64,000 nt of DNA from an uncultured Planktomarina sp. (GTDB lineage Bacteria; Pseudomonadota; Alphaproteobacteria; Rhodobacterales; Rhodobacteraceae): positions 243,407-307,406 of the forward strand of contig CAJIZA010000005.1 of assembly GCA_905181815.1 (NCBI GenBank), read 5' to 3'. The position numbers were made by a program, and so were the translations under genes. The notes beneath the pieces are model-generated. The model was given only the letters and a program-made list of their open reading frames with translations, searched no databases and had not been told where the DNA came from. Positions 45,717 to 61,904 of this stretch are shown in pieces (position 1 is the stretch's first letter; every line of letters begins with the position of its first letter).

Positions 45717-46195
45717 TTATTTGACCAGCGTGGCCCCTTCGGCCGAAGCGCTCAACTTGGCATAGGCGATATTAGGGTCGACCGTGCCAAAGCCTGCGAA
45801 GGTGCCAAAGCCGCAGTCACTGCCAGCTATCACTCGTTCATGACCGACAATATCGACGAATCTTTCAATCCGCTGCGCCACCAGTTCCGGATGTTCGACA
45901 AAATTCGTTGTCGTGTCGACCACGCCTGGCACCAAAACCTTTGTATCGGGAATATCGGCCTTTCGGTCGCGAAAGACGGTCCATTCATGCCCATGGCGCG
46001 GGTTTGAGGTTTCAAACAACACATAGCGTGCCTTGGCGGACATCAGCGTATCGAACATTTTCGACATGGGAATGTCACAGACATGCGGCCCTTCATAATT
46101 GCCCCAGCAAATATGAATTCTCACACGCTCCTCGGGCACATTCGACGGCGCGTGGTTGAGCGCCTCTACATGAGTAGCGGCAATTTTCACGATAG
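45717..46195 (-). pseudogene. Truncated MetE-like gene, C-terminal half only
   Basis: A C-terminal fragment of about 155 residues matches the C-terminal part of the full MetE-like protein at 47583-48707 almost line for line: RIHICWGNYEGPH, SNPRHGHEW, VVDTTTNFVEHPEL and SDCGFGTFAGFGTV. The N-terminal 220 residues are missing; upstream is the end of the RraA gene. The fragment keeps the zinc cysteines but cannot fold as a whole enzyme. It is the product of a local duplication, and it directly abuts repeat copy A. Confidence 0.75.
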
Positions 46196-46197
46196 TG

Positions 46198-46893
46198 TTA
46201 AGTGCGAGCGTTTTCAAAGGCCGTCCATGCGGTCTCGAACGCGTCGAAATCAAATCCGTCTTTGCGAGCAGGGTCGAGGACCAGCTTTTCGGTTTCCAAG
46301 AGTTTGTGGATTGCTGCTTCTAATGTGTCCAATACCTCGGATGGGATTACTACCCCACCGTGGCGGTCTGCATGGATCAGATCACCGTCAGCAACCTGCA
46401 TCCCAAAAACAGTAACTGTCGTACCTACCTCTTTTACATGTACAAAACCATGACTAGGTCCTATTGATCCAGCCACCACAGGAAAGCCGTCCGGGAGATC
46501 GCCAAGATCGCGCATAACGCCATTGGTCAGGACACCCGACATGCCAAATCCTTTGTGAACGGTTGTGTTGATCTCTCCCCAATATGCACCAATGCAATGG
46601 GGGAAATCCAAATCCTCAACCACCACGACGGCGGGGCGCGTTCCCTTGGCCATATGGGAGTAATACGCCATCCGACGGGCTTTGATTATCTCAGGCGCTT
46701 CAGTTGGCGGTGCCACTGCTGCAATTCGGGCGGTACGTGCATAGCCAACCATTGCTGGGGCGTCAGGTTGAGACGCAAGCATCGTGCCGCGGGTAAATGC
46801 GTTAAAGCCACGTTCACCTTGCGCGACCTCGATCGCATTACAAACAGTCGGTGTGTCTACTTGTTGGAGTATTTTCAGAAGCGCATCGTTCAT
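46198..46893 (-). CDS. RraA-like aldolase (HMG aldolase family)
   Basis: This 231-residue protein has family motifs: DTPTVCNAIEV near the start, the GVLTNGVMRDL segment, then IHADRHGGVVIP. RraA-fold proteins include 4-hydroxy-4-methyl-2-oxoglutarate aldolase, which splits 2-keto-4-hydroxy acids into pyruvate and another keto product. A lyase step at the end of a catabolic pathway fits. It starts one base from the upstream alpha/beta hydrolase stop. Confidence 0.8.
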   Translation of the reverse strand: MNDALLKILQQVDTPTVCNAIEVAQGERGFNAFTRGTMLASQPDAPAMVGYARTARIAAVAPPTEAPEIIKARRMAYYSHMAKGTRPAVVVVEDLDFPHCIGAYWGEINTTVHKGFGMSGVLTNGVMRDLGDLPDGFPVVAGSIGPSHGFVHVKEVGTTVTVFGMQVADGDLIHADRHGGVVIPSEVLDTLEAAIHKLLETEKLVLDPARKDGFDFDAFETAWTAFENART

Positions 46894-47586
46894 TTAAACC
46901 TCCAGCCAGCGGGCCAGTGCCGCATTAGTCAAATTAGGTTTTTCTAAAGTGGGCAAATGCCCTGCACCTTCGATAATCTCGAGATGAGCGTTGGGGATCA
47001 GCGCCGCCATCAACTCATGGCGGGACACAGGGCAAAGTGCATCGTCGCGCCCACACAAGATCAATGACGGAACATCTAAAACACGCAAAATATCAGTCTG
47101 ATCAGGCCGATCCATCAAGGCGCGTGACTGATCAAGAAAGACATGTGGCCCAAGGCTCAGTGCCATCTCCATACAAAGATCAAGAATGCTTTGACGTTGT
47201 GGCGTCTCGCTCAGGTAATGTGGCTTCATTTCATCGCGCATCACAGTTCCTAGGGCACCGGCACGCACTTTCACCATCTGTGGCAGACGAAGGGCTTTGA
47301 TCTGGTCGTCCTCAGCCAGTGGGTTGGTATCCATCAGGGCAATCCGATCAACGCGTTTTGGCTCTTGGCGTAAGACTTCCATCGCGACGATGCCACCCAT
47401 CGATAAACCTGCGAGGGCAAAACGCTTGGGGGCATTAGCCAACACATCAGCGGCCAGATCTTTGACGGATGCGCGGCCAACTATTGGCATACATACTAAC
47501 GTACGCCAACCAGAGAACGCCGCAATCTGCGGGCCAAACAGCCGCGCATCGCACATCATTCCAGGGATCAGGACAAGCGGTGTCAT
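46894..47586 (-). CDS. Alpha/beta hydrolase
   Basis: This 230-residue hydrolase has the nucleophile elbow GLSMGG (Ser62), an acid in CGRDDALCP and the catalytic histidine in GAGHLPTLEKP. The size and motifs match hydrolases that open lactones or esters. It overlaps the MetE-like gene by four bases and sits next to the RraA gene, so it is part of the same transcript. Substrate unknown. Confidence 0.85.
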   Translation of the reverse strand: MTPLVLIPGMMCDARLFGPQIAAFSGWRTLVCMPIVGRASVKDLAADVLANAPKRFALAGLSMGGIVAMEVLRQEPKRVDRIALMDTNPLAEDDQIKALRLPQMVKVRAGALGTVMRDEMKPHYLSETPQRQSILDLCMEMALSLGPHVFLDQSRALMDRPDQTDILRVLDVPSLILCGRDDALCPVSRHELMAALIPNAHLEIIEGAGHLPTLEKPNLTNAALARWLEV

Positions 47587-48707
47587 TTGACCAGTGCTGC
47601 GCCTTCCGACAAGCTTCGCAATTTGGCATATGCAATATCAGGGTCAACCGCGCCAAAGCCAGCAAAAGTACCAAAGCCGCAATCAGACCCAGCTATCACG
47701 CGATCTGTACCGACAATATCCACAAAGCGCTGAGTGCGCTCGGCGACCAATTCAGGATGTTCTATAAAGTTGGTGGTTGTATCTACCACACCGGGTACAA
47801 GGATTTTGTTATCTGGAATATCGGCCTTACGATCGCGGAACACGGCCCATTCGTGACCGTGGCGGGGATTTGATGTCTCAAACAGAACCGAAGCGGCTTT
47901 GGTCGACATCAGCGTATCGAACATCTTGGCCATCGGGATGTCGCAACAATGCGGTCCCTCATAATTACCCCAACAGATATGAACGCGAACCTTTTCTGCG
48001 GGCACCTCGGATAGCGCATGGTTTAACGCTTCGACATGCATGTTTGCTACCTTGATAAATTCGTCATCCGACAAATCTTCAAAAAGCATGTGGCGGGACA
48101 AGGCAAGATCGGGACAGTCCAGTTGCAGATCTAGACCAGAGGCAACGATAGTTTCATATTCCATCTTCATTGCGTCAGCCAGTGCGGCCAAATACGCCTC
48201 ACGGTTTTTGTAGTAATTATTTTGCAAAAACAGCGAAATCACACCAGGGCTGGCGGCATTCATAAAGCCGCGCTCAACCCCGTGTTCGGCCATGGCTGCT
48301 TTCAGATTTGCGATGTCCTTTTCCAACTCACCTTGGCCTTTGGACTTTACCTCAGCCACGCACATTGGCCGCGCATATTGGGGAGAGCCGCCTTCGTTTG
48401 CTAAACGTTCCAAGAAGCCTGGGAACAGTTTCAAATCACCTGGAGCATTGCGAGGGCTATCGCCTGCGAAACCTGTGTAGCGGTCTTTGACGTAAGTCGC
48501 ATAGCTGATCTTGGATGTCTCGCCATCAGACACGATGTCCACGCCCGCCTCGACCTGTTTATGCACCGTTTCGGACACGGCTGCGGTCATGCAGGCGTCA
48601 AAATCAGCCTGCTCGAACGGGGTTTCATTTTCACGTGCGAAGATAAACTCCACAACCTCTTGGGTGCGCGGCAAAGAGCCCACGTGGGTTGTCTTGATCT
48701 TGGTCAT
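47583..48707 (-). CDS. MetE-like, cobalamin-independent methyltransferase-family protein
   Basis: This 374-residue single-domain protein is half the length of MetE. It starts TTHVGSLPR and retains the zinc site: His243 and Cys245 in HICWG, Glu277 in FETSNPRHGHEW and Cys343 in GSDCGFG. Members with this length include epoxyalkane:CoM transferases and other thiol-alkylating or dealkylating enzymes, so methionine synthesis is not the obvious role. In this cluster it may demethylate the imported compound or transfer a side group. It is followed by the alpha/beta hydrolase with an overlap. Confidence 0.8.
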   Translation of the reverse strand: MTKIKTTHVGSLPRTQEVVEFIFARENETPFEQADFDACMTAAVSETVHKQVEAGVDIVSDGETSKISYATYVKDRYTGFAGDSPRNAPGDLKLFPGFLERLANEGGSPQYARPMCVAEVKSKGQGELEKDIANLKAAMAEHGVERGFMNAASPGVISLFLQNNYYKNREAYLAALADAMKMEYETIVASGLDLQLDCPDLALSRHMLFEDLSDDEFIKVANMHVEALNHALSEVPAEKVRVHICWGNYEGPHCCDIPMAKMFDTLMSTKAASVLFETSNPRHGHEWAVFRDRKADIPDNKILVPGVVDTTTNFIEHPELVAERTQRFVDIVGTDRVIAGSDCGFGTFAGFGAVDPDIAYAKLRSLSEGAALVK

Positions 48708-48730
48708 TACTCATGCTCCTGGATATAGTC

Positions 48731-49687
48731 TTACAGACCGGTCAGACCGGCAGCATCGTCAGTACTACGGATACGATACAAACTGGCCTCGCCTGTCATC
48801 GACGGTTCGATTGAATGCGGTTCACCTACTTTGATCAAGCATGTATCGCCTGGGTTCAGTATTTCCTCATCACCATCGAAGCGCAAACGCCAATGGCCGC
48901 GCATAGGCATCAAGACGGTGTTTTGATCAACGGTCTCCATGTCGCAGGAAATAGAATTTTGAGATAGAAAATCGACCTCGAAACCGGGACGATCCTTTAG
49001 CAGCGCATGTGCACCTATCACCTTGGCAGGCTGTTTGTCGGAAAGAGACATCATGTCCCAATAGCGCGCCACATGGTTAGGCAACACGTCAGCCGTTGTA
49101 GGCTCAGCGCGTTGGGCCAATTCCTCATCGGTCATCACCTGCTTTGGGCTGACATTACGGGGCAAGGTATCACCCGTCTTGCTATCATAGAGCACACCGT
49201 TTTCACCCAAGATCAAACCATGATCCGCAGCATCTTCGATTACTTGAGGGGCCCAGTGAACACCGCCACCAGCATCGTTGCCACCAAGGACTGCCATTAT
49301 CATACCGTAGTCAGTTCCAATATTTTCAAAACCACGGAAAATACCGGTAGGAATATTGAAAATGTCACCTTCTTCGAGCGTCACTTCACCCGCATTACCC
49401 CAACGCCCCCAGAAGAAACGCCATTTACCTTTAAGAACAAAAAATACCTCGGCCGTGTTATGATCATGCAGCGAATTGCGAACTCGTGGCGGCTGTCCAG
49501 CCGCACCAATGTTAAACCCGATCTGATCCGCAATATGTACATGTTGATCCGGACTTTCAGATACACCACCACCAATGATGGTAAAGTTTTCTTTTTGATC
49601 GGATCCCGGCGTGTGAGCGTCGATAAAAGCGGTCTTGCAGGGTCTCAGCTCGCCATAGCGAACAATGCGGTCTTGGATGTTTATCAT
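48731..49687 (-). CDS. Bicupin protein
   Basis: This 318-residue protein has two cupin domains. The first (about residues 55-150) has HDHNTAEVFFVLKGKWRFFW and GDIFNIPTG; the second (about 235-310) has LMPMRGHWRLRFDGDEEILN and PGDTCLIKVGEPHS. The histidines of domain 1 could hold a metal. Bicupins include gentisate and homogentisate-type dioxygenases, isomerases and transcription cofactors. GGAG precedes the ATG. It heads the smaller transcript that ends with the truncated MetE-like gene. Confidence 0.75.
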   Translation of the reverse strand: MINIQDRIVRYGELRPCKTAFIDAHTPGSDQKENFTIIGGGVSESPDQHVHIADQIGFNIGAAGQPPRVRNSLHDHNTAEVFFVLKGKWRFFWGRWGNAGEVTLEEGDIFNIPTGIFRGFENIGTDYGMIMAVLGGNDAGGGVHWAPQVIEDAADHGLILGENGVLYDSKTGDTLPRNVSPKQVMTDEELAQRAEPTTADVLPNHVARYWDMMSLSDKQPAKVIGAHALLKDRPGFEVDFLSQNSISCDMETVDQNTVLMPMRGHWRLRFDGDEEILNPGDTCLIKVGEPHSIEPSMTGEASLYRIRSTDDAAGLTGL

Positions 49688-49843: not shown

Positions 49844-50812
49844 TTATCCTGTCTGCATCAAGATTTGCTTCCAAATCGCAACATGGTCAAACAACGTCCA
49901 TTCGCGACGCAAACCCTTTAAGCCAAATTCCGCATGGGTAAATCCCATTACATACACGTCAGCACCAGTGGGTTGGCCAAACATGCCCCAGCCGTCATGT
50001 TTGCCGTGCAGGCTCCAGCGAATAGCAGCGCGTGGGGATACCATCGGGTCTTCGCGTCCAATTTGATGTTCGATCTTGAACTCAGCGTTTGGGAACGATG
50101 CCCGCAGCCCCATCCACAGCTTTTCGGTATCTGCCCAAGAATGCACGGTGGTTGAGGCAGGATGCTCAGTCTGCACAGCACGGTCATATTCTGCTCGTAT
50201 AACAGCAAAATCCTTATCCATTATTCGAGTCAGGATGTTAGACATTTGCACACCCCATTCGTTGTTATTTCCGCGCCCTTTGTAAGGGCCATCAACATCA
50301 ATCGCAGGACAAAATGGTTTGACACAATGCTCCGGACCACCTTCACGGGCAATCAACTGACGAGCAAACTTTTTGGGTTTCATACCCAGTTGTTTAACCA
50401 ACCCTCCAACATCACGGATTAGCCATTCGTCGTTGATCTGGTCGTTGATGGCAGCACAATCAGCAATCGCACGAATTACGAACCTTTTGCCTGTGGCTGG
50501 GCCAAAAAATCCTCCGCCAGTGTGCGTGCCCATAGTAAGTATCCGATGAGACGACAAAAACCCCTCATCTTCGTTACCCGACCAGATCACATCTTCACCC
50601 ATCAGCTCACGATCCGGAAATTCTGCCAGCGTCGCCATCGTACCATTTATTGTATTTTGATTCCCGATCGATACACCTTCAGGAAAACGCATGGGAATGT
50701 CTTTCGAATACCGATGGTTTAGCGTAGCTATACCACGATCTTCCCAAATTTCCTGCGTGATACCGAGAATATAGTCAGGAAAATCTTTCCACCTGTTTGA
50801 GAAGCCCTTCAT
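49844..50812 (-). CDS. SnoaL/NTF2-like protein, two-domain type
   Basis: This 322-residue protein shows two NTF2/SnoaL-like halves, each with an aspartate-rich helix and a five-strand cone (FKIEHQIGREDPMVSPRAAI, then WSLHGKHDGWGMFGQPTGAD). SnoaL-type proteins include polyketide cyclases, dehydratases and isomerases. Starting at ATG 50812 gives a four-base overlap with the LacI gene and a ribosome site AAGGA; the ATG at 50821 is a less likely start. It is the last gene of the long transcript. Confidence 0.65.
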   Translation of the reverse strand: MKGFSNRWKDFPDYILGITQEIWEDRGIATLNHRYSKDIPMRFPEGVSIGNQNTINGTMATLAEFPDRELMGEDVIWSGNEDEGFLSSHRILTMGTHTGGGFFGPATGKRFVIRAIADCAAINDQINDEWLIRDVGGLVKQLGMKPKKFARQLIAREGGPEHCVKPFCPAIDVDGPYKGRGNNNEWGVQMSNILTRIMDKDFAVIRAEYDRAVQTEHPASTTVHSWADTEKLWMGLRASFPNAEFKIEHQIGREDPMVSPRAAIRWSLHGKHDGWGMFGQPTGADVYVMGFTHAEFGLKGLRREWTLFDHVAIWKQILMQTG

Positions 50813-51828
50813 GTAGTCCATCCTTCTGGAATTTTTGCGGAACCGCGCAAAATGAGCGGGCCATCAATTGCTATTCGGCGAGTTTCACCTGTGTTGTTCT
50901 CAATCTGATCAAGCAAGATTTCAACCGTATTGGCGACCATGCGATTGGCGGGCTGACGTACTGTGGTCAGGTCATAGGCGGGCCATCTAGCTGCTGGCAC
51001 ATCATCATACCCAACCACAGAAACATCGTCAGGAACCCTGAGCCCAAGCTCAAAGCGCAAGGTATCTAGAACGGCAACGGCCATATGGTCATTCGCAACA
51101 AAAACGGCTTCTGGCACATCATGCGCAAACATTTTTCGCGTGGCGTCGGCAGCTTTCTCCATTGTGAAATCGCCTTCTGTACGGCAATGGAGTTCGACAC
51201 CCGCCTCATCCAACGCTGATATGAAACCCGCTTCGCGGTCGCGTTGCGTTGATGCACCAGGCCAGCCAGCAATATGCCCAATTTTGCGATGCCCCGCAGC
51301 CAACAAGAATTCAGCAACCTTACGCCCTCCAGCATAGTTGTCGGACGTCACTGCAGACATATTGGGGTCATCTTGACTGCGGTTAAATAAAACCATCGGC
51401 ACGCCAGCCACACGGCATCGTTCAGACAGATCAGATGACATGGCAACAGAAGCTGCAATAATGCCATCAACTTGGTAATCAAGAATTTCCTCAACAACCG
51501 TGTCGATGGACCCAGCAGTCTGTTTGGCCATAAAAATCAGTACGTGATAGCCACGTTTTTGTAATTCATTCGACATTTTTTCGAGAGCTTCTGGGTAGAA
51601 CTGGTTTTCGAGATACGCCACCACCAACCCAATTATTCGACTTTTCCCTGATACCATCGCCCGCGCAAGAACATTGGGACGATAACCAAGATCTGCTGCT
51701 GCTTTACGTACTTTTTCAATGGTTTTTTTTGAGGCAGACGCTCCAGGTGTAAAGGTTCGCGACACAGCGGATTGGCTAACGCCAGCGCGTTCGGCAACCT
51801 CTTGTGATGTGACGCGGTTCTTGCTCAT
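50809..51828 (-). CDS. LacI-family transcriptional regulator
   Basis: This 339-residue repressor starts MSKNRVTSQEVAERAGVSQ, a LacI HTH, with the hinge helix near LARAMVSGKS. The sugar-binding-type effector domain follows (DGIIAASVAMSSDL, VANDHMAVAVLDTL, VSVVGYDDVP). ATG 51828 overlaps the SDR stop in ATGA. It probably binds the two TTGCA-type operators at 59873-59943, inside the divergent promoter of the same cluster. The effector is likely the pathway substrate or an intermediate. Confidence 0.93.
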   Translation of the reverse strand: MSKNRVTSQEVAERAGVSQSAVSRTFTPGASASKKTIEKVRKAAADLGYRPNVLARAMVSGKSRIIGLVVAYLENQFYPEALEKMSNELQKRGYHVLIFMAKQTAGSIDTVVEEILDYQVDGIIAASVAMSSDLSERCRVAGVPMVLFNRSQDDPNMSAVTSDNYAGGRKVAEFLLAAGHRKIGHIAGWPGASTQRDREAGFISALDEAGVELHCRTEGDFTMEKAADATRKMFAHDVPEAVFVANDHMAVAVLDTLRFELGLRVPDDVSVVGYDDVPAARWPAYDLTTVRQPANRMVANTVEILLDQIENNTGETRRIAIDGPLILRGSAKIPEGWTT

Positions 51829-52592
51829 TCGGCAGTCCAACCTCCGTCAACCAATAGGGATGTACCGGTTATCATTGCGGATGCTTGGGATGACAGAAAA
51901 ACTACGGCACCCATTATATCTTCAACCTCGCCAGCACGGCCAAGTTTGATTTTGTCTTGGATCCAAGCACGTTTCTCGGGGTCTTCGAAGGTTGGTCGCG
52001 TCATATCGGTCAGAATGAAGGTTGGGCAGATCGTGTTGATCCGGATACCCGCCTTCCCCCATTCAATTGCCATAGATTTGGTAAAGCCTTCTACCGCGTG
52101 TTTAGTTGCACAATAAACGGCGCGATCTATTCCGCCTACATGGGCCATTTGCGATGAAATGTTGATCAGGCTTCCTAGTTTGCCTGCTGCCACCAATCCT
52201 TTAGCGACGGCTTGGGTCAGAAAATAGGCCCCTTTAATATTAAGTGCAGCCACAGCGTCATAGTCAACTTCTGTTGTATCTGCTGCAGGACTGTGACGGG
52301 CTAAGCCCGCCGAATTCACAAGAATGTCAAAAGGGCCATGTGAAGCCACGGAGGCCTGCGTGCTTGCGATATCGGAAACGTCCAGAGGTAAGGCATCGGC
52401 AGACATTCCCGCCGCGTTCATTTCATCGACGAGCGCTTTTAGTATACCAATTCGTCGTGCGGCTAGCGTGACTTTTGCACCTGCTTCACCCAGCGCAACG
52501 GCACAGGCCAATCCAATGCCCGAACTTGCACCCGCGACTAAAGCGCGTTTTCCATCCAAACGGAACGAGGGTGTTTTAGGTAAAGTCATCAT
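51825..52592 (-). CDS. Short-chain dehydrogenase/reductase
   Basis: This 255-residue oxidoreductase has the NAD(P) motif GASSGIG (residues 21-27), the NSAG motif, and the catalytic S-Y-K (ISSQMAHVGG, then VYCATKHAVEG). The LLVDGGW ending is also typical. The basic residue after the Rossmann motif (AARR) favours NADPH or NADP. It lies between a SnoaL gene and the regulator, overlapping both. An alcohol or keto-acid step is likely. Confidence 0.92.
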   Translation of the reverse strand: MMTLPKTPSFRLDGKRALVAGASSGIGLACAVALGEAGAKVTLAARRIGILKALVDEMNAAGMSADALPLDVSDIASTQASVASHGPFDILVNSAGLARHSPAADTTEVDYDAVAALNIKGAYFLTQAVAKGLVAAGKLGSLINISSQMAHVGGIDRAVYCATKHAVEGFTKSMAIEWGKAGIRINTICPTFILTDMTRPTFEDPEKRAWIQDKIKLGRAGEVEDIMGAVVFLSSQASAMITGTSLLVDGGWTAE

Positions 52593-53641
52593 TTGGCTCC
52601 AATTGGTAAAGAAATAAAGCCCATCACGCGTGCTTTGTTGAATTCACGCAATCGAGCAAACACATCTACGCCAATTTGAGCGTAAACATCCAACAGATCG
52701 ACCAAGACCCAATTCTCGCGAATGAACTCACCTTCAACGCGCCAAAAGTCGAGACTGCGCATCGTGATTTCTTGACCGGACGGGGCAATGCCCAGCCATC
52801 CATCCCCAGTGACCGTCATCTGCATATTTGGCCATCCCGTTGCAACGACATAAGCGCCGTCTCCATAGAAGTGACAGTTGAGTGTTCCCGTTGTACCGCC
52901 TCGTCGATCAGGCAGAGCACTCAGGAATGGGATTTGATGCCAATGGCGAAAACCAGCTAGACCGCGCGCCGTACCGATACCCGCAGGGCCATACCAATTG
53001 ACGCGCGGATCCCAGTATTTCTCTGCCTGCATGATCTCGGGGCCACCCTCGGCAGGATGGCGAGAAAGATCGGTTAACATCCTGATCACGGTTTTTAGGC
53101 TGTGTGCGCTTTGGTTTGCAGTGCGTGTCTCAAAAGACAGTCCATCTTGGCTTGCAGGTCCGGGGATATATATCTCACGTCCAAGGCTAGGCACCATGGG
53201 CCATGCACCTGCTTGCATCATGAGTTCGGGAATATCCCAGATCGCTTGCATCTCGACAATACGACTGTCTGCGACGCGATAGAATTCGTGAAACCGCATA
53301 TGAGCAAAATGACCCGTCGGCGGAATATCAAGGAAACGGCGTGTGAAGGTGCCAACATAATGTCCAGCACATCCGATCCAATCGTTACCGTCACGATCTG
53401 TTCCGGCGCTGACGATCCAGTCACGGCGCTCCAAATCTGACAAGGCGTCAAACAATGGCACGTAGGCAGCATCATATAGCGCTTGTGGTCCTGACAGATC
53501 ACCAAACGGATGGCACAGATGCACAATTGCGTCTTCTGTCATAACCTCGCCAAGCGCGGATTGCACTGACACGCAGTCAAAGTTTGCCATGGCCGTTCGC
53601 AGGGGCGTTATCAGCGCCCTTATTCGGTCAAGGCTGCTCAT
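52589..53641 (-). CDS. SnoaL/NTF2-like protein, two-domain type
   Basis: This 350-residue protein is homologous by eye to the products at 54966 and 59974, with shared motifs WDIPELMMQAG, WYGPAGIG, FLDIPPTG and ENWVLVDLLDVYAQIGVDVF. The two halves each resemble a SnoaL domain; conserved His and Asp residues line a probable pocket. The start overlaps the dehydrogenase-gene stop as TAATG. It is likely an enzyme (isomerase, dehydratase or cyclase) rather than a bystander. Confidence 0.7.
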   Translation of the reverse strand: MSSLDRIRALITPLRTAMANFDCVSVQSALGEVMTEDAIVHLCHPFGDLSGPQALYDAAYVPLFDALSDLERRDWIVSAGTDRDGNDWIGCAGHYVGTFTRRFLDIPPTGHFAHMRFHEFYRVADSRIVEMQAIWDIPELMMQAGAWPMVPSLGREIYIPGPASQDGLSFETRTANQSAHSLKTVIRMLTDLSRHPAEGGPEIMQAEKYWDPRVNWYGPAGIGTARGLAGFRHWHQIPFLSALPDRRGGTTGTLNCHFYGDGAYVVATGWPNMQMTVTGDGWLGIAPSGQEITMRSLDFWRVEGEFIRENWVLVDLLDVYAQIGVDVFARLREFNKARVMGFISLPIGAK

Positions 53642-54951
53642 TACTCAGCGGCCTCACCGTAGGGTACATTTTGACCACCATAGCGACGGACACGCAGGTT
53701 ACATTGTTCAGCGTGACCGACAAAACCTTCCAGCAGGCATAAACGTGATCCATATGCCCCAATCTTGGCCGCCGCTTCATCCGTGGTGATTTTTTGGTAG
53801 CTGTGTGTTTTTAAATATTTACCAACCCAAAGACCACCCGTGTAACGCCCTGCCTTCTTTGTGGGTAGGGTATGGTTGGTTCCAATCACCTTATCCCCGT
53901 TGGAAACGTTCGTACGTTGCCCAAGGAACAGCGCGCCGTAGCATGTCATATTTTCTAAGAACCAGTCATCGCGTTCCGTCATCACCTGAACATGTTCGGA
54001 TGCAATGTCGTCTGCGACTGGCTAGCATCTCATCATACGTGTCACAAAGAATAACTTCGCCGTATTCTGCCCAGCTGACCCCAGCAGTGCCAGCCGTGGG
54101 GAGGATTTTCAGGATGCGGTCGATCTCGACAGCGTATCTTCAGCCAATTTGCGTGAATTTGTCACTAGAACAGCGGGTGAGTTGTAGCCATGCTCGGCTT
54201 GACCTAACAAATCTGTGGCACACATCTCGGCGTCAACAGTTTTATCTGCGATAACCATTGTTTCGGTTGGGCCTGCAAAAAGGTCAATTCCGACGCGACC
54301 AAAGAGCTGGCGCTTAGCTTCAGCAACAAAGGCGTTGCCCGGCCCAACGAGAAGGTGAACCGGATCGATGGTCTCAGTGCCGATCGCCATCGCACCAACC
54401 GCCTGAATGCCGCCCAAAACGTAAATTTCATGCGCGCCGCCCAAGTGCATTGCGGCAATCACTGCGGGGTTTGGTTCGCCGTTGAAGGGCGGAGTGCAGG
54501 CGATGATACGCGGCACACCTGCTACCTTGGCTGTGGCGACGGACATATGCGCAGAGGCAACCATCGGGAATTTTCCACCAGGCACATAGCAACCAACGGA
54601 TTGTACGGGGATATTTTTATGACCGAGGATCACACCGGGCATGGTTTCAACTTCGATATCAAGCATGCTGTCGCGCTGTGCTTGGGCAAAGTTGACAACT
54701 TGGGCTTGGGCGAATTTGATGTCCTCAAGGTCGCGTGGGCTGACCTTTGCGATCAACGCATCGATCTCACCTTGGCTAAGCCGATAGCTGTCTCGATCAT
54801 AGCTATCAAATTTGTTGGCTAATTCGCGCACTGCAATATCGCCGCGCATTTCAATAGCCTTGAGCGTAGCGGCGACGACATCTGCTGTCTTGGCGTCATC
54901 TTCGGCCCGATCGGCCTGGGGTTTGCCGTGTTTGAGGTGTGTTATTGTCAT
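53641..54951 (-). pseudogene. Histidinol-dehydrogenase-family enzyme, two frameshifts
   Basis: The first part (54951-54109) and last part (53985-53641) both read as a roseobacter HisD-family dehydrogenase, very like HpsN: '[20 protein letters not shown]', [16 protein letters not shown], then [20 protein letters not shown]. Between them, [16 protein letters not shown] and [16 protein letters not shown] lie in the other two frames, so two one-base shifts (near 54120 and near 54020) restore a protein of about 437 residues. Such enzymes oxidise an alcohol through an aldehyde to a carboxylate with NAD. The substrate here need not be DHPS. GAGGAT before the ATG is a good site. Confidence 0.85.
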
Positions 54952-54965: not shown

Positions 54966-55493
54966 TTAGTCAGGTCTTGGGGCAGAGCGGTCGCCCCGGT
55001 CAAAGGCTTCCCAACCCTCACCGTTGAACAAGTCCACACCCAGTTGTGCCGCTACATAGGCAAAGTCGACATTCACCCAATTGTCGACAATCTTGCCGTC
55101 AACAACTTTCCAGAAATCCATATAGCGAATTTCGATCCGTTTGCCGGTTGCTTTCATGCCAAGGAAGTCGCCGGAGTGCGTTGCTTCTTGGCGGCCAAAA
55201 GCTGCAGCCCATTCACCCATGTAAAGACGTGCCTCGTCGATGCATATCTTGTCAGAGAAAGCGGCCTGAAACGGGCGTTGCCAGTTATCTTGGAATTCCC
55301 GCAGGCCAGTTTTTATCCCACAGCCCTGATTGCCCATCCAGCGAAAGCTGTCTGAGAAGAACTCGCCTATATCGGCAATGCGGTGATCGTTCAGACCATC
55401 AACCATGCCTTCAATAACCGCTCTGGTATCATCCGTTTTAGACATATCTGTGTCGCGCGACAAAACCGCTTGCTCTGGGCGTGCTCCGCTCAT
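54966..55493 (-). CDS. SnoaL/NTF2-like protein, single-domain
   Basis: This 175-residue single-domain relative of the longer SnoaL proteins has [37 protein letters not shown] and '[20 protein letters not shown]', then [20 protein letters not shown]. The ATG at 55493 overlaps the permease stop (ATGA); an internal ATG at 55445 is an alternative. It sits between the transport genes and the dehydrogenase, which fits a first or second catabolic step. Confidence 0.75.
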
Positions 55494-56374
55494 CCTTTGA
55501 CTGCTCCTGCTGTAAGACCACTGACAATTTGGCGTTGGAAAAATAGAATTAAGACGAACAGGGGTGCCGTAGCCGAAACAACAGCGGCAACTGCAAACAT
55601 GACGTTACCCTCAGTCTGGGTTGTTCCCAAGAAACTGGCTATCTTTGGTACCATCGTCTGGTTCGCTTGGCTTAGCAAAGTCGCAGTCACGGTAAAGTCA
55701 TTGTAGGCTAACAGGAATGAAAATAACCCGGTGGTCACAACGCCCGGCCACATGACTGGCACGATAACATGGCGAAAAGCTTGAAAGCGTGTGCAGCCAT
55801 CAACCATCGCACTTTCATCAAGATCTTTAGGGATATTGAGGAAGAAGCTGTGCAACATCCACAGGGTGAAGGGCTGATTGATTGCAACCATAACAATAAT
55901 CGCAGTTGGTAGGTGCCCCCAGAGGTTCCATTCAAAGAATGGCAAGAGGTATCCGGAGACTAACGTGATATGGGGCATCGCACGAAAAACTAGGGCCAGA
56001 ATCAGCAGATAGAAAGCGTATTTCTTTCCAGAACGCGCCAGTGCGTAGCCGCCAAGCGTACCAAGGGTCAATGAAATCACAACAACCGAAACCACCACGA
56101 TGCTTGTGTTTAGAGCAGCGAGCCAGAATTCTTGGGTGACCCAAGCGCCGTGATACCCTTTGCCAGTTAATACGCCACCCGTTTCGATTTGCGTGCGCAC
56201 ACCATAAAGGGCATTGGTCCAATCAGCTTTTGAGAAGAAATCACCCTGCACTTTGAAAGACCCCCAAAGCGTCCAAAGGAATGGAAAGCCAGCGGCAACT
56301 ATCCAGGCCAAAACAAGGCCCCAAATGATTATATTCAATAGTGGCGAGCGGCGATGAACTATATCTGACATCAT
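55490..56374 (-). CDS. ABC sugar-type transporter permease (MalG-like)
   Basis: This 294-residue protein has six membrane helices and the permease EAA-type loop ESAMVDGCTRFQAFRHVIVP, as in MalG-like CUT1 permeases. It overlaps the partner permease by four bases (TGATG) and the SnoaL gene by four. Together with 56371 and the ATPase at 58791 it forms the importer. Confidence 0.93.
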   Translation of the reverse strand: MMSDIVHRRSPLLNIIIWGLVLAWIVAAGFPFLWTLWGSFKVQGDFFSKADWTNALYGVRTQIETGGVLTGKGYHGAWVTQEFWLAALNTSIVVVSVVVISLTLGTLGGYALARSGKKYAFYLLILALVFRAMPHITLVSGYLLPFFEWNLWGHLPTAIIVMVAINQPFTLWMLHSFFLNIPKDLDESAMVDGCTRFQAFRHVIVPVMWPGVVTTGLFSFLLAYNDFTVTATLLSQANQTMVPKIASFLGTTQTEGNVMFAVAAVVSATAPLFVLILFFQRQIVSGLTAGAVKG

Positions 56375-57405
56375 ACCACCTTCTGATTAAAGTCGCGCCA
56401 CGTCCTAACTAGCACCGGTATAAGCAGAATGCTTACCCCTATAATGGTTAGAACCGAGGTTGCGCCGGCTGAGCCAAAGAACTGGCTCTCAGTCCCTACT
56501 AAGTCATTGTAAATAATCCATGACAAGGAGGTGGCGCTGGCTTGGGCGGAGAAGCTAACTATTGGTTCGAAGACGCGAAAGTTATCCATTAGCTGGATAA
56601 GCAAAATGAAAACGGTGAGCGGCATCAGGTGAGGTAAGACCACATAGCGCGTCCGCTCCCAACGTGAGGCACCATCAATCATTGCTGCTTCCATTGTCTC
56701 GGCAGGGACTGTTTGTAGACCTGCATAAAACACGATGAACGCAAAAGGGGCAGAATGCCAAACTCCGTAGACCATCAGCATTATCCAGGTGAGGGGCGGC
56801 GATGCTTTCAGAGATAGGTCTGGGTCCTCAAATATCCACTGCAAGGTCGAGCCCAAAATACCGTTGGCATCAATCATCCAGAACAAGATCAGCGATCCAA
56901 TCAAAGGCGTTACTATCATTGGCAAGAGCGAGATAAAGATCGTTGGCCCTTTTATCTTTTTTGGCAATGTGTTGACGCCAAGCGCGATCATGAAGCCAAA
57001 GGTAACCACCAATGGTGTCACAACGAAAGTGTAGGTAAGAGTAAAGGCAAGGGCCCGATAAAATGGTAAGTTCAGTACTTTTGACATGAAGTCGACTACA
57101 CCAGTGCTCGATTGCCAAGCCAAACCAATTTCGGTGAAGGCAAGGTGATTGCGGTTGGTGTAGGTGCCCAAGCCGTTGAACTGACCCAATGGGCGTTCTT
57201 GTTTGAGTTTAGCGGTTTCTTCGACATCAACTTGTAATTCTTGTTTGCAACCAAAGGGGCCACAGTTTTTCACCTCAACCATGACAGCTTCATGCTCGAT
57301 ATGTAGCGACTGCACAGCCACAGAAATAATCGGCAAAGCGATAAATAGCAGCATCGTAATCAGCGATGGTAATATAAACCAAAAGAAGGTGCGATTTTTC
57401 ATCAA
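56371..57405 (-). CDS. ABC sugar-type transporter permease (MalF-like)
   Basis: This 344-residue protein has a longer N-terminus with two cysteines in a periplasmic loop (VKNCGPFGCKQELQVD) between the first two helices, as in MalF-like proteins. The EAA loop reads EAAMIDGASRWERTRYVVLP. It is translated next to the binding protein. An intact gene. Confidence 0.92.
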   Translation of the reverse strand: MMKNRTFFWFILPSLITMLLFIALPIISVAVQSLHIEHEAVMVEVKNCGPFGCKQELQVDVEETAKLKQERPLGQFNGLGTYTNRNHLAFTEIGLAWQSSTGVVDFMSKVLNLPFYRALAFTLTYTFVVTPLVVTFGFMIALGVNTLPKKIKGPTIFISLLPMIVTPLIGSLILFWMIDANGILGSTLQWIFEDPDLSLKASPPLTWIMLMVYGVWHSAPFAFIVFYAGLQTVPAETMEAAMIDGASRWERTRYVVLPHLMPLTVFILLIQLMDNFRVFEPIVSFSAQASATSLSWIIYNDLVGTESQFFGSAGATSVLTIIGVSILLIPVLVRTWRDFNQKVV

Positions 57406-57472
57406 GCTCGCCTAAAGGTAAGGTGACATTAAAGAGTTGAGGAAGAGGGCGATTGCCCCCTTCCAAATTGAT

Positions 57473-58708
57473 TTATTTCAAGAAACCTTGCTCTTTCGCT
57501 GCAGCGGTGTAAGCTGCTTCAACGTCAGCCAGTGCTTGTTCTGCGCTTTCAGAGCCTTGCAAGAAATCGGTGATTTCTGCTCCAAGAGCTGTGTGAAGTG
57601 CACCCATGAATGGCAACATCGGGTACGGCGCTGCACCGCCAGATGCTGTGCCAGAAACACCTGCTGAAGCTGGACTTGGCATGTAAGCACCGTCCAACCA
57701 TACAGCCGCAGCATTGTTGGCCTTTACAACATCGGAGGAAATGCCATTCATCATTGCGACGAATGTAGCTTCTGCATCTTCGTCAGATACGTTTGTTGAG
57801 ATCGCAATGCCATCCCACCACAGTGTGGAAGCTGGGCGAGCCCCATTGCCCCATGTTGGCGCTGCAGAAAGAACAGTGCCCGATACAACTTCTGCAGTTG
57901 ACCCTTCGTCGTCCAGGACGGCGCTACCGCGTGACCCCCACATTGTTGCCAATGCAAGATTGCCAGCTTCCCACTCAGCTTGTGTCGCATTAGAGTCATA
58001 CGTCAGATAATCAGGGTTGGAATATGCAACCAATGATTTCAGCATATCAAGCGTAGCAACGCCGTTTTCGTTGTTTACAGCAGCTTCTGCAGTACCAGCT
58101 TTAAAGAAGTCAGCGCCTGTGCCCATGTACATGTTCACAAACTCTTCAGCCAAGTTCCAGCCAGCCTTGGTGTTCAAGGCGACTGGATATTCCATCAAAC
58201 CAGCAGCGCGAATTTTTTCTGCGGCGGCAAGAACATCTTCATAAGTCGCCGGGATCCCATCGACTCCAGCTGCCTCCAAAACGTCGGTACGTGAGAACAA
58301 GTGTTGAGCATTTGCCATGAAAGCAACTGCCATAACTTTGCCGTTTACTGTGATCAATTGACTTTTGCTCAATGCAGCTCCGTGCTTAGCAACCATTTCG
58401 TCGAGCGGGCGAACTAAACCGTCGTTCATCAATGTAACGAGAGTTGAGTTGGAGACAATCACAGATGAATACTGTGCAGGGTTGGCAGTAAGTGCAGCAA
58501 CCATGATGTCTTTATGGTCTTTGGTCAGGTTGGTTTTGACCGTAACACCATCACCAGCGCAAGATGCCGCTGCAGATGTAACGGCTTGGATTGCGGGGAA
58601 ATCGTTGGATAGAACGCTGACACTGCCACTAGAAATGCCGCATCCAGCAATTGCAGTGCTTCCCAAAAGGGCAAAGGCACCAACGAATGAAATTGTTTTT
58701 AGAAACAT
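57473..58708 (-). CDS. ABC transporter substrate-binding protein
   Basis: This 411-residue protein starts at ATG 58708 (site AAGGAG) with a signal peptide (MFLKTISFVGAFALLGSTAIA). The body has the extracellular solute-binding family 1 pattern (AGLMEYPVALNTKAGWNLAE, LATMWGSRGSAV, ASTLWWDGIAISTNVS). Such proteins bind sugars, polyols or glycerol-phosphate compounds. An early cysteine after the signal (GCGISSG) might be lipidated, but no clean lipobox is visible. Confidence 0.93.
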   Translation of the reverse strand: MFLKTISFVGAFALLGSTAIAGCGISSGSVSVLSNDFPAIQAVTSAAASCAGDGVTVKTNLTKDHKDIMVAALTANPAQYSSVIVSNSTLVTLMNDGLVRPLDEMVAKHGAALSKSQLITVNGKVMAVAFMANAQHLFSRTDVLEAAGVDGIPATYEDVLAAAEKIRAAGLMEYPVALNTKAGWNLAEEFVNMYMGTGADFFKAGTAEAAVNNENGVATLDMLKSLVAYSNPDYLTYDSNATQAEWEAGNLALATMWGSRGSAVLDDEGSTAEVVSGTVLSAAPTWGNGARPASTLWWDGIAISTNVSDEDAEATFVAMMNGISSDVVKANNAAAVWLDGAYMPSPASAGVSGTASGGAAPYPMLPFMGALHTALGAEITDFLQGSESAEQALADVEAAYTAAAKEQGFLK

Positions 58709-58763
58709 TTGTTTCTCCTTATTTTTCATTAAGATGCACCTTGCAAGATCGCACCTTGGTTAC

Positions 58764-58778
58764 TCCCCATTTTGGGGA
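58764..58778 (-). terminator. Hairpin between the ABC ATPase and binding-protein genes
   Basis: TCCCC, ATTTT, GGGGA forms a five-base stem. A second palindrome, GGGGTTAACCCC, lies just beside it over the ATPase stop. No T run follows. Such hairpins between transporter genes often protect or attenuate mRNA to raise the binding-protein level. Confidence 0.4.
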
Positions 58779-58790
58779 TTTTGTTTGGGG

Positions 58791-59840
58791 TTAACCCCCA
58801 ATTCGCGCACCAGTTTGAGGATTGAAAAGGTGGCAAATCTCATTTGGCACAGAAATGTGGACCATGTCGTCGATATTAGCTCGGTAATTTTTGTCAGCTT
58901 TTACAGAGACAAGCGCACCGCCTATGCGTACGCTGACCATAGTCGCGTCACCGAGCAGTTCCATCGTGTAGATAGGCGCGTTAATCTGCCCACCTCTTTC
59001 CACTACTTTAGCATCCTCAGCCCTGAAACCAAGCGTGACCGGACCGTCGGCTGCGTCGATACCATTAATTTCGACGTCTTTCGCAGAAAAATTTCCTTGC
59101 GCAATCTCACCACTTATTAGGTTCATCGCCGGATTTCCAATAAAGCTGGCGACGAACGCATTTGCAGGATTGTCATAAATTTCTACCGGAGTGCCGACCT
59201 GCTGAACTACACCTTCGTTCATGATGACAACCCGGTCTGCGAGGGTCATCGCTTCGATCTGGTCATGGGTCACATAGATCGTTGTAACCGCGAGTTCATG
59301 AGACAAGTTTTTGATTTGTGCGCGGGTCGATACCCGTAATTTAGCATCGAGATTAGAAAGCGGTTCATCCATCAAAAACAGGTTCGGTTCCCGCACAACC
59401 GCGCGCGCTAATGCCACACGCTGGCGTTGGCCACCCGACAGTTCGGCGGGCTTGCGATGCAGAAAATCATCCAGCTCAACCATCGCACTGGCACGTTTAA
59501 CTTTTTCATCCTGACTTTTGGGATCGACGCCCCGAACTTTCAACGGAAAACGGATGTTTTCGTAAACATTCATGTTCGGGTAGAGCGCGTAGCTTTGGAA
59601 CACCATCGCAACGTCGCGATCTTTGGGTTCGAGATCATTGACGCGTTGTCCGTCCACCAAAATATCGCCTTCGGTAGCGTCCTCTAACCCAGCAATCATA
59701 CGCATGGTTGTGGTTTTGCCACAGCCTGATGGACCAAGCAGGACCAGAAATTCCTTGTCCACGATAGTAAGATCGAACTTATGAACACCCACAAAGGACC
59801 CCCAACGCTTGGACAGATTGCGAAGCTGAATTTCGGCCAT
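58791..59840 (-). CDS. ABC transporter ATPase (UgpC/MalK-type)
   Basis: This 349-residue ATPase has Walker A GPSGCGKT (residues 36-43), the signature LSGGQRQRVALARAVVREP, Walker B LFLMDEPLSNLDAK and an H-loop. The C-terminal 110 residues form the TOBE-type regulatory domain. GGGAGG precedes ATG 59840; the longer reading to 59888 lies in the operator region. It is first in the large minus-strand transcript of the island. Confidence 0.95.
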   Translation of the reverse strand: MAEIQLRNLSKRWGSFVGVHKFDLTIVDKEFLVLLGPSGCGKTTTMRMIAGLEDATEGDILVDGQRVNDLEPKDRDVAMVFQSYALYPNMNVYENIRFPLKVRGVDPKSQDEKVKRASAMVELDDFLHRKPAELSGGQRQRVALARAVVREPNLFLMDEPLSNLDAKLRVSTRAQIKNLSHELAVTTIYVTHDQIEAMTLADRVVIMNEGVVQQVGTPVEIYDNPANAFVASFIGNPAMNLISGEIAQGNFSAKDVEINGIDAADGPVTLGFRAEDAKVVERGGQINAPIYTMELLGDATMVSVRIGGALVSVKADKNYRANIDDMVHISVPNEICHLFNPQTGARIGG

Positions 59841-59872
59841 TTTGCCTCCCAGAAAAAGATGCAGATGTTTTT

Positions 59873-59888
59873 TTGCATTCGTGTGCAA
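59873..59888. promoter_or_regulatory. LacI-type operator 1
   Basis: TTGCATTCGTGTGCAA has TTGCA/TGCAA half-sites around a central CG, as LacI-family operators do. It lies 33 bases upstream of the ATPase ATG. It matches operator 2 (59928-59943) at 13 of 16 bases. Confidence 0.75.
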
Positions 59889-59927
59889 GAAGCATAGACA
59901 TTCGTCCGTTTGTTTGGCAACCTATTT

Positions 59928-59943
59928 TTGCAAACGAGTGCAA
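59928..59943. promoter_or_regulatory. LacI-type operator 2
   Basis: TTGCAAACGAGTGCAA lies about 30 bases before the SnoaL gene at 59974, so the two operators flank the divergent promoter. Their centres are 55 bases apart. A dimer or looped tetramer of the LacI protein encoded at 50809 is the likely ligand. Confidence 0.75.
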
Positions 59944-59973
59944 GAATTGCTTCCATCCCATGAAGGTGACTCA

Positions 59974-61002
59974 ATGAATTCAGATTTTACACATGAAAAA
60001 CAAATTATAAGGAACTTTTACGCGCGACTTGACAGCGCAAATTTATCTGAATTAGCTGTGGTGTTGGGCGAGTACACATCCAAAGATTATCTTTGGCGAG
60101 GATACCATCCGTTCAATGAAATCACATCTGTACGAACGCTCGCCGATTCGTTCTGGCAACCGCTAAGATGCGCCATGACATCTATGCAGCGCCGCATGGA
60201 TGTTTTTATGGCAGGTCATAATACCGTCGCGGAACAAGGTGGCGTATGGGTCGTTTCAATGGGCCATCTGATGGGCCTATTCGACAAGCCCTGGCTAGGG
60301 ATCTCGCCGACTGGCAAAATGGCCATGCTGCGCTATTGCGAATTTAATCGAGTTGAAAATGGCAAAATTGCCGAAACGGCGATGTTCTTCGATATCCCAC
60401 ACTTGATGATGCAGGCGGGATTACAACCGTTTCCTCATCAAACAGCGGCGCACATAGTCCAACCCGGCCCCATGACACATGACGGTTTGATGTTTACCCC
60501 CCAAGACCCAGACGATGGACGAAAGACGATGGCCGCGATCAATGCGATGATCAGTGACCTCGGAACTTGGGCCTCAGGCATGCCGCTGGAAGAAGAATTG
60601 GCACGCACATGGAACGACGACATGATCTGGTGGGGTCCAGCAGGGATAGGTGCAACCTATACAATTAAGCGATATGCAAAACAACATTCTGGACCATTTC
60701 GCGCGGCATTCTCTGAAAGGTCATCGACAGGACACCTATGTCGCTTGGCAGAAGGTAACTTTGGTGGTTTTTTTGGCTGGCCAAATTTTTCTGCGCTCCA
60801 CACCGGAGGGTTCATGGGGATGCCTGCTAGTAATGAACGTGGTGAAATGCGAGTGATCGATATATACCGACGCGAGGATGATAAACTAGCCGAAAACTGG
60901 GTGTTTATCGACCTACTGCATTTCTGGAAGATGCTTGGTGTGGATATTCTGGCTCGAACCACATCAATTTCCATGGGACAGGCAACTAGTGCACAGGGCT
61001 AA
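59974..61002 (+). CDS. SnoaL/NTF2-like protein, two-domain type
   Basis: This 342-residue protein is the closest match of the product at 52589 (shared FFDIPHLMMQAG, WWGPAGIG, ENWVFIDLLHFWKMLGVDIL). ATG 59974 has a good AAGGTGA site; readings from 59842 run through the operators. It is the first gene of the plus-strand pair, under operator 2, and is followed three bases later by an amidohydrolase. Confidence 0.75.
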   Translation: MNSDFTHEKQIIRNFYARLDSANLSELAVVLGEYTSKDYLWRGYHPFNEITSVRTLADSFWQPLRCAMTSMQRRMDVFMAGHNTVAEQGGVWVVSMGHLMGLFDKPWLGISPTGKMAMLRYCEFNRVENGKIAETAMFFDIPHLMMQAGLQPFPHQTAAHIVQPGPMTHDGLMFTPQDPDDGRKTMAAINAMISDLGTWASGMPLEEELARTWNDDMIWWGPAGIGATYTIKRYAKQHSGPFRAAFSERSSTGHLCRLAEGNFGGFFGWPNFSALHTGGFMGMPASNERGEMRVIDIYRREDDKLAENWVFIDLLHFWKMLGVDILARTTSISMGQATSAQG

Positions 61003-61004
61003 AA

Positions 61005-61904
61005 ATGATTGATGCTCACCATCATCTTTGGGAACTTTCCAAAGTGCACTACCCGTGGCTTATGGCCCGCGGTGTAGAACGATTTTTTGGGAACCCCACC
61101 TCTATTCAACGCGATTACTTAATCAACGAGTTCAGAGCCGAAGCTTCGGCGCTGGGAGTTACCGCATCTGTCCACATACAGGTAGGCGCCGAGGACCCAA
61201 TGGCCGAAGCCCGCTGGGTACAGGATGTCGCCGACGCCAATCCCGACTGGCCATTGAAACAAGTAGTTTTTGTCGACCTCACTGCAGGTGATCTGGACGC
61301 CAAACTGGATGCTTTTCAGACCCTACCCAGCGTCGTTGGAGTGCGTCAAATTATTGGTCGCGCACCAGGCGAAGACGCAGTAACCGGAACAAAAACTCTG
61401 CTCGATAACCCCAATTTTATTGTTGGGCTACAAAACGCTGGGCGACGTAAGCTAAGCTTTGATCTTCAGTTAATACCAGAGCTGATGGGAAAAACCGCTG
61501 ACTTACTAGCGCGGGCGCCAAATACCGCTGTCGCGCTTTGCCATGCGGGATCGCCGCATGATAGGTCTAACAACGGGCTGGCGTCTTGGGCAGACGAATT
61601 ACGTGCTCTTTCTGTTCTGCCACAGGTACGTTGCAAGCTATCTGGCTTAGGTATGTTTGATCATAACTGGGTATCCGAGAGTTTCCGCCCTATCGTTGAA
61701 ACCTGCCTAGATCAATTCAGCCCAAACCGCGTAATGTTTGGATCAAATTTCCCAGTGGACAAGTTATATTCCAACTATGCCACACTTAGTAATACCTATC
61801 GCGAACTTATCCCGCATGATATGCATCAAATGGTTTTTACAGAAACGGCAGCAGATTTTTATTCTGTATCCCAAGACAATATGGCCGGCTGTTTAGAGAA
61901 GTAA
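61005..61904 (+). CDS. Amidohydrolase-2 family hydrolase (lactonase-like)
   Basis: This 299-residue TIM-barrel hydrolase starts MIDAHHHLW, the metal-binding HxH at the first strand. It has further motifs CHAGSPHD and FGSNFPVDK, all typical of amidohydrolase-2 proteins such as sugar-acid lactonases and 2-pyrone-4,6-dicarboxylate lactonase. Opening of a lactone intermediate fits a cluster that already has alcohol-oxidising enzymes. It has a three-base gap to the SnoaL gene, and repeat copy B follows. Confidence 0.85.
   Translation: MIDAHHHLWELSKVHYPWLMARGVERFFGNPTSIQRDYLINEFRAEASALGVTASVHIQVGAEDPMAEARWVQDVADANPDWPLKQVVFVDLTAGDLDAKLDAFQTLPSVVGVRQIIGRAPGEDAVTGTKTLLDNPNFIVGLQNAGRRKLSFDLQLIPELMGKTADLLARAPNTAVALCHAGSPHDRSNNGLASWADELRALSVLPQVRCKLSGLGMFDHNWVSESFRPIVETCLDQFSPNRVMFGSNFPVDKLYSNYATLSNTYRELIPHDMHQMVFTETAADFYSVSQDNMAGCLEK

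Follow-up and report, generated by a model that had tools for sequence, protein, structure and literature searches.

We analysed a window of 64,000 nucleotides at the end of contig CAJIZA010000005.1 from an uncultured Planktomarina sp. (assembly GCA_905181815.1, 2.54 Mb, 91.7% complete). Positions 45717–61904 of this window hold a genuine island of about 16 genes, common to many marine bacteria and found in parts in distant land bacteria. It encodes an ATP-binding cassette (ABC) importer, four SnoaL-fold proteins, a HisD-family dehydrogenase, a short-chain dehydrogenase/reductase (SDR), a cupin, a MetE-like protein, an alpha/beta hydrolase, an RraA-family aldolase, an amidohydrolase and a LacI-type regulator. 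With moderate confidence we propose LacI-controlled import followed by alcohol oxidation, SnoaL chemistry, demethylation, cleavage by the cupin and the hydrolase and a final retro-aldol step; the compound degraded is probably ring-shaped or sugar-like. What can be read from the DNA itself is which genes are present and in what order, a pair of operator-like sites, the conserved catalytic residues, the IS6 borders and a regulon; the reactions we infer from these. Gene identities come from a Pfam scan of the 18 open reading frames (ORFs) in 45717–61904, which bore out the genes named in the original prediction, including its four SnoaL-fold proteins (49844–50821, 52589–53641, 54966–55493 and 59842–61002).

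That prediction had described the genes as a catabolic island and suggested looking for the same set in other genomes. The set indeed recurs in the same order at dozens of loci, which puts chance assembly out of the question, and it is a widespread conserved cluster rather than an isolated island, most of its genes recurring together in named genomes. The tandem SnoaL protein SnoaL-3 (52589–53641, minus strand; Pfam) was matched in 30 of 101 genomes, its own included, and in 18 of 20 within the genus. Scanning named genomes gave at least 581 confirmed stretches, from which the best 80, mainly from Rhodobacterales, were kept for locus counts. Among these 80, 66 loci have at least 9.5 kb on the right, and they carry SnoaL-5 (62 loci), LacI (57), the cupin (56), the SDR (54), RraA (47), the hydrolase (46) and the MetE-like gene (45). 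Likewise 66 of the 80 have at least 9.9 kb on the left, with each transporter gene at 62 loci, HisD at 60, the small SnoaL gene at 56, SnoaL-1 at 55 and the amidohydrolase at 31.

Additional genes are found inside or beside the operon. In a set of 127 loci, whose counts include three duplicate pairs (L030/L071, L032/L074 and L033/L073), a GMC oxidoreductase lies inside the operon at 10 loci, two being the same place (one Pfam-checked), and an S-adenosylmethionine (SAM)-dependent methyltransferase at 15 (L039, L040, L087, L101 and 11 others; one Pfam-checked), 14 of which have it between the cupin and MetE-like genes. Scattered near the island are sulfatase-like and GlxA-like clusters, at 6 loci each and named partly by reading. 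Ruegeria conchae TW15 has two loci (L096 and L099), one with the full island and one with only the transporter and two SnoaL genes, the partial one adjoining a gene that reads like a LysR regulator. On a plasmid of the haloarchaeon Halobellus limi (L026), five genes annotated as ester cyclases (SnoaL) form a row with a MetE-like gene.

The original prediction had placed a LacI switch inside the catabolic unit, and both a predicted operator pair and a putative shared regulon support it. The regulator is encoded at 50809–51840 (minus strand, Pfam PF00356 and PF13377), with a probable ATG at 51828. SnoaL-1 (59842–61002, plus strand, Pfam) and the MalK-like ABC ATPase (58791–59888, minus strand, Pfam PF00005) are divergent, with probable ATG codons at 59974 and 59840; all three starts were assigned by reading the translations. 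A CG-centred palindrome is present in 30 of 43 divergent SnoaL-1/ATPase gaps, compared with a mean of 1.96 and a maximum of 5 for shuffled letters. In our window the palindrome search gave two operator-like sites without strand, TTGCATTCGTGTGCAA at 59873–59888 and TTGCAAACGAGTGCAA at 59928–59943. When up to three mismatches are allowed, two operator matches occur in the 64 kb, both in the divergent promoter and 55 bp apart. The predicted LacI operator can also be given as TTGCAWACGTATGCAA.

The same type of site is found at other places. In Deinococcus QL22 the inner 14-mer occurs twice, exactly, in a divergent promoter beside a cupin gene. Four genomes (G010, G012, G013 and G019) each have a CACACGTG-type site (one AAACGTG) at three separate loci, and all 12 of these sites precede a HisD gene, an ABC ATPase gene or an orphan cupin gene. 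The distance to the matched part of the protein is 23 to 78 bp, except for one site that touches it. Further sites lie at the stand-alone cupin gene of G020 and at a cupin gene of G074. The TTGCANNCGNNTGCAA pattern was detected in 30 of 61 genomes, and its reversed control in no genome; another palindrome accounts for many of the TTGCANNCGNNTGCAA matches. The palindromic site would thus join the cupin, the SnoaL/HisD module and the transporter in one regulon, independent of gene order, and CG-centred palindromes at the target promoters, as expected for a LacI regulon, are seen at the level of sequence only. One operator-like site (G014:C147:3090) was set aside as chance, being inside a listed ORF. 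A different palindrome, TTGCAACCGGTTGCAA, occurs at up to three places in many genomes of the same genus (for example G000:C1:430368, 437932 and 723506), and in our judgement it is probably the site of another LacI-type regulon.

The importer consists of two permeases (55490–56374 and 56371–57405, both minus strand, Pfam PF00528), an extracellular solute-binding protein (57473–58729, minus strand) and the ATPase. The solute-binding protein has no Pfam match at 0.001; in phmmer searches it matches solved sugar-binding proteins, 5iai being the best (E 2.9e-10). The OB_MalK domain of the ATPase scores 24 bits, under the cutoff of 27.

The island encodes two dehydrogenases. The HisD-family gene (53641–54951, minus strand) is confirmed as to family by Pfam; as a correction to the original prediction, its frame is broken into ORFs 54109–54951 and 53641–53985, with the middle in another frame and 2 in-frame stops in the main frame, against stops in 0 of 68 full-length relatives. 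The break may block the pathway in this genome, unless it is an assembly error or a substitute enzyme exists. The N-terminal piece scores 253 bits to the (R)-2,3-dihydroxypropane-1-sulfonate (DHPS) dehydrogenase 8wwe, its closest solved relative, and 229 bits to sulfopropanediol 3-dehydrogenase, but only 169 bits to the best histidinol dehydrogenase; HisD is also above the TIGR00069 cutoff (284 vs 243.8 bits). By sequence comparison of this N-terminal piece, the island HisD is nearer to DHPS dehydrogenase than to histidinol dehydrogenase and is of the HpsN type, not of the biosynthetic type. For the SDR (51825–52592, minus strand, Pfam), the solved relatives are 2-deoxy-D-gluconate 3-dehydrogenase (178 bits) and, lower, HpsO (8wwf, 142 bits).

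These matches bear on the main rival explanation, a linear sugar-acid pathway without ring cleavage, in which an O-methyl sugar, polyol or aldonate would be oxidised by the SDR and HisD, the amidohydrolase would open a lactone, the cupin would be an isomerase and the aldolase would cut a 2-oxo-3-deoxy acid. The sugar-type ABC importer, the LacI regulator and the nearest relatives of the SDR (2-deoxy-D-gluconate 3-dehydrogenase) and the amidohydrolase (fuconolactonase) all agree with it. So does an MFS_2 sugar-type symporter directly before HisD in four genomes (one Pfam-checked), and so do cupin-HpcH-hydrolase genes near the tetronate gene otnK (otnI in two) in Vibrio, Salinivibrio, Thioclava and Ensifer NER9 (L165, L171, L162 and L172). 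We considered the symporter as a replacement for the ABC importer in these four genomes and rejected it, the importer being kept there at another locus. However, the island Pfam matches include no sugar-acid dehydratase family, a dioxygenase heads the cupin fold matches, and four SnoaL proteins with a PcaD-like hydrolase would be unusual for a linear sugar pathway. Overall, we regard this explanation as possible, though doubtful.

Besides SnoaL-1 and SnoaL-3, the SnoaL set comprises a 325-residue protein (49844–50821, minus strand, Pfam PF07366 in two matched stretches) and a single-domain protein (54966–55493, minus strand, Pfam) that scores 41.8 bits to SnoaL_meth_ester, under the cutoff of 200. 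The AlphaFold2 (AF2) model of SnoaL-3 has a predicted local distance difference test (pLDDT) value of 80.9, with residues 154–159 and 219–238 of low confidence. In this model the single domains match SnoaL-type polyketide cyclases (target template modelling (TM) score about 0.8), and the two-domain matches, tandem epoxide hydrolases, are loose.

Dioxygenase cupins typically have a metal site of three histidines and one glutamate. The two-domain cupin of the island (48731–49687, minus strand, Pfam), a putative metal dioxygenase from its conserved residues and fold match, has the H-x-H-x3-E motif and an incomplete site, in which H74, H76 and E80 are kept and the last histidine is R118; all four residues are invariant in 82 of 82 homologs. 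In the fold search with its model (pLDDT 82.5), the top match is quercetin dioxygenase (TM about 0.47), followed at near-equal scores by oxalate decarboxylase and salicylate dioxygenase (TM about 0.5). The resemblance to the 3-hydroxyanthranilate dioxygenase model is weak, as are the sequence matches in the PDB search (E 0.0025 at best).

The MetE-like protein (47583–48707, minus strand, Pfam PF01717) is a putative zinc methyl or alkyl transferase with the catalytic domain only. Its putative zinc ligands H243, C245, E277 and C343 are invariant in 73 of 73 homologs, all of which also have the homocysteine-contact residues at sequence level; we take these residues to have the roles that they have in MetE methionine synthase, His, Cys, Glu and Cys being the zinc ligands there. 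The score for the methionine synthase equivalog is not reached (95.7 bits at best, cutoff 406). The leftmost ORF of the stretch named in the original prediction (45717–46253, minus strand) is a C-terminal fragment of a second MetE-like copy (Pfam Meth_synt_2, part 216–305), 77% identical to residues 209–374 of the intact protein.

In the alpha/beta hydrolase (46894–47586, minus strand, Pfam), S62, D182 and H210 are invariant in 61 of 61 homologs; its best NCBIfam models are PcaD types, and PcaD alone gives 85.7 bits, under the cutoff of 255.85. The RraA-family aldolase (46198–46893, minus strand, Pfam PF03737) matches the solved structures 3k4i (uncharacterised, E 1.6e-4) and 3noj, a 4-carboxy-4-hydroxy-2-oxoadipate (CHA) aldolase (E 2.3e-4). 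Its R128 and D129, invariant in 57 of 57 homologs, fit the catalytic Arg-Asp motif of CHA aldolase (LigK/ProA), and it does not reach the equivalog score of that enzyme (28.3 vs 304.5 bits). The amidohydrolase (61005–61904, plus strand, Pfam PF04909) is sugar-lactonase-like: L-fucono-1,5-lactonase is the sole name from NCBIfam (112 bits, cutoff 400), through which alone LigI and LigJ were compared.

A methoxylated aromatic compound of the syringyl or lignin-like type, with ring cleavage by the cupin and a lower pathway of the CHA type, would give a role to several of these enzymes. RraA resembles CHA aldolase, the hydrolase resembles PcaD and the cupin weakly resembles 3-hydroxyanthranilate dioxygenase, and homologs in R. 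wittichii and Cupriavidus lie near aromatic genes. Against it, the importer is sugar-type, the HisD/SDR pair is polyol-type, and the island Pfam scan gave no extradiol LigB, Rieske or flavin monooxygenase match. We consider an aromatic substrate very unlikely.

A smaller module is found in distant bacteria. The cupin search matched 52 plasmid records, 14 of which were examined. HisD, SDR, cupin, alpha/beta hydrolase and aldolase genes, accompanied by zero to four SnoaL genes, are annotated together in Roseibium, Klebsiella, Pantoea, Priestia and Deinococcus; the Priestia SDR is annotated as glucose 1-dehydrogenase. Partial modules occur in R. wittichii, Roseomonas, Thioclava, Vibrio, Salinivibrio and Ensifer NER9, and Novosphingobium has cupin, hydrolase, HisD and SnoaL genes, with a second HisD-SDR-aldolase set nearby. 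In the Cupriavidus and Rhodococcus records examined, the module was not seen. The Roseibium module has RraA, and the other aldolase-bearing clusters have an enzyme annotated as aldolase/citrate lyase or HpcH/HpaI (Pfam-checked in three). That one pyruvate-type aldolase family stands in for another supports a final retro-aldol cleavage. Over 250 aligned residues, the aldolase of R. wittichii and SwHKA (6r62) are identical. The reactions of SwHKA are described on pyruvate and hydroxypyruvate (PMC10099721), and the words "native" and "physiological" had no match in that paper.

Near the SnoaL set of Vibrio pelagius, genes annotated as sarcosine oxidase and purU are found, and at 10 of the 127 loci the flanks contain a protein cluster including this sarcosine oxidase alpha subunit (other members named by reading). 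They would agree with catabolism of an N-methylated compound of the betaine or sarcosine type, with the SnoaL set as an accessory. However, GcvT-domain genes are common (11–20 per genome in the genus, with an estimated 2–5 expected in 784 kb of flank) and the 127 loci are not independent. We rejected the GcvT/sarcosine association as a clue to the substrate, since the abundance of such genes largely accounts for it, and judge an N-methylated substrate extremely unlikely.

Our preferred model, LacI-controlled degradation ending in a retro-aldol step, would run as follows. The importer would take up a hydrophilic polyol-like compound, and inducer binding would free LacI from its operator. The SDR may oxidise a secondary alcohol and the HpsN-type HisD a primary alcohol to the carboxylate. 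The SnoaL proteins could then catalyse acid-base chemistry (hydrolysis, isomerisation, elimination) on a carbonyl intermediate that can enolise and is probably cyclic, and the MetE-like zinc enzyme would unmask an enol by passing a methyl group on to a thiol, probably that of homocysteine. The cupin would cut the resulting enol ketone using oxygen, the hydrolase would open the cupin product, and RraA would split it into a pyruvate-type acid and a second fragment. Evidence from the operator, from the regulon that the loci share and from the exchange of RraA for HpcH strengthens these parts of the original prediction: LacI control, sugar-type import, oxidation and terminal aldol cleavage. Its methoxylated substrate is read from the MetE-like gene, not found in 21 of 66 loci, and its lactone opening from the lactonase-like gene, not found in 35 of 66.

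Several observations weigh against this model. Given these counts for the MetE-like gene and the amidohydrolase, the step of neither enzyme is universal. In the stretch examined, partial loci (for example L096, L103 and L125) have only the transporter genes with one SnoaL gene or two. The gap of the window itself fails the strict palindrome rule and is not among the 30, its sites being imperfect, and shuffling the whole window 100 times gave at least two such operator matches anywhere in 7 cases. In the cupin, the motif-2 histidine of classic dioxygenases is replaced by Arg118 in all 82 homologs, and oxalate decarboxylases and seed-storage cupins score similarly in its fold list (TM about 0.5). 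RraA and the hydrolase score under the curated cutoffs of characterised families, HisD is broken in the window genome, and the substrate, the reaction order and every activity are inferred.

The full marine version may degrade mycosporine-like sunscreens via their gadusol core, a reading that we consider unlikely. The ring of 4-deoxygadusol is of the 2-methoxy-1,3-dione type and has a tertiary alcohol to which CH2OH is attached. On such a substrate, the SnoaL proteins would free the amino acids, HisD would convert CH2OH to COOH, and the MetE-like enzyme would strip the methyl group to give a reductone, which the cupin would cut. The product would be 4-carboxy-4-hydroxy-2-oxoadipate, from which the RraA aldolase would give pyruvate and oxaloacetate. 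The scheme fits on paper, but the absence of MetE from a third of loci counts against demethylation as a fixed step. According to a review, Vibrio harveyi was suggested to strip mycosporine-like compounds to mycosporine-glycine, and bacteria are reported to form 4-deoxygadusol (PMC3083659). No genes for mycosporine or gadusol breakdown were named in the open-access literature searched.

Degenerate IS6-family transposase remnants lie at both borders of the island, on the same strand. They were detected by tblastn with the IS6-type protein of L096 as query. On the left (45463–45609, minus strand), N- and C-terminal pieces are adjacent (E 5.7e-6 and 0.61); on the right (61987–62040, minus strand), a C-terminal piece is 67% identical over 18 amino acids (E 0.011). 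Direct repeats D2 (61923–62033 on the right) and D3 match between the two borders, and because the right remnant is weak alone, it is these repeats that carry that border. Ruegeria, Paracoccus and Octadecabacter have the cluster on plasmid records, and in Paracoccus and Octadecabacter it lacks some genes. The SnoaL-3 tree places two Halomonas rows within a Leisingera/Ruegeria/Tropicibacter group that has starred support, and joins the window row to HTCC2150, IMCC1909 and one metagenome-assembled genome; the Vibrio and Halobellus rows are on long branches and their placement was not used. No clean empty site was seen in G001, where the flank genes are arranged otherwise. We give about an even chance to the island being a horizontally mobile catabolic operon with its own LacI repressor.

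The GC content climbs to about 0.50 from about 0.37 just left of 44 kb (0.36–0.48 over the left part). The low-GC DNA at 518–32818 holds a flagellar set (FlhA, FlhB, FliK, a FliI-type ATPase, FliF and MotB), with a sigma-54 factor and a sigma-54 activator. To the right of the island, the stretch 62314–64000, where a CrtC-like lipocalin gene lies, has 97.5% identity to G000:C4:11149–12835 in the same genome, the identity starting near the IS6 remnant; it is either a duplication or an assembly artefact at the contig end.

Since marine Rhodobacterales commonly carry the set and the smaller module extends to Deinococcus and Bacillota, the substrate is probably a metabolite of wide occurrence, one whose breakdown genes we did not find described. 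It could be sought directly through the operator, the binding protein and the aldolase. If the substrate were a mycosporine, the set would offer gene candidates for what becomes of a major algal sunscreen. The claim that the set is undescribed is not contradicted: we found no description of it, nor any paper combining SnoaL with histidinol dehydrogenase, in the open-access literature, which misses most subscription papers.

The comparison with DHPS, inositol and aromatic pathways, suggested by the original prediction, showed likeness for single enzymes (DHPS, aromatic) and missing key families; inositol, DHPS and plain sugar-acid pathways were rejected, as their key families are missing from the island Pfam scans. 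DHPS degradation shares the nearest relative of HisD and a relative of the SDR, but no sulfolactate or sulfonate-releasing lyase family is among the Pfam matches of the 18 ORFs, and that pathway has no role for the cupin, MetE, SnoaL, hydrolase and RraA genes. The CHA lower pathway of gallate and protocatechuate 4,5-cleavage (LigK/ProA) likewise has an RraA-family aldolase as last gene with a PcaD-like hydrolase before it, whereas the island RraA is far under the cutoff and a LigB-type dioxygenase is missing from the Pfam matches. With the non-phosphorylative L-fucose/L-rhamnose pathway the island shares an SDR, a fuconolactonase-like amidohydrolase and a pyruvate-type aldolase, but it differs in lacking a Pfam match to a sugar-acid dehydratase and in the low lactonase score. 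The R. wittichii sister cluster has SwHKA, of the HpcH/HpaI family, whereas the window has RraA in that place. Acireductone, quercetin 2,4- and 3-hydroxyanthranilate dioxygenases have the same cupin fold with the H-x-H-x3-E motif, unlike the island cupin in having histidine in motif 2, and sequence matches to them are weak. What is new here is the predicted LacI-type operator and regulon, the smaller module reaching distant bacteria, and a HisD nearer to DHPS dehydrogenase.

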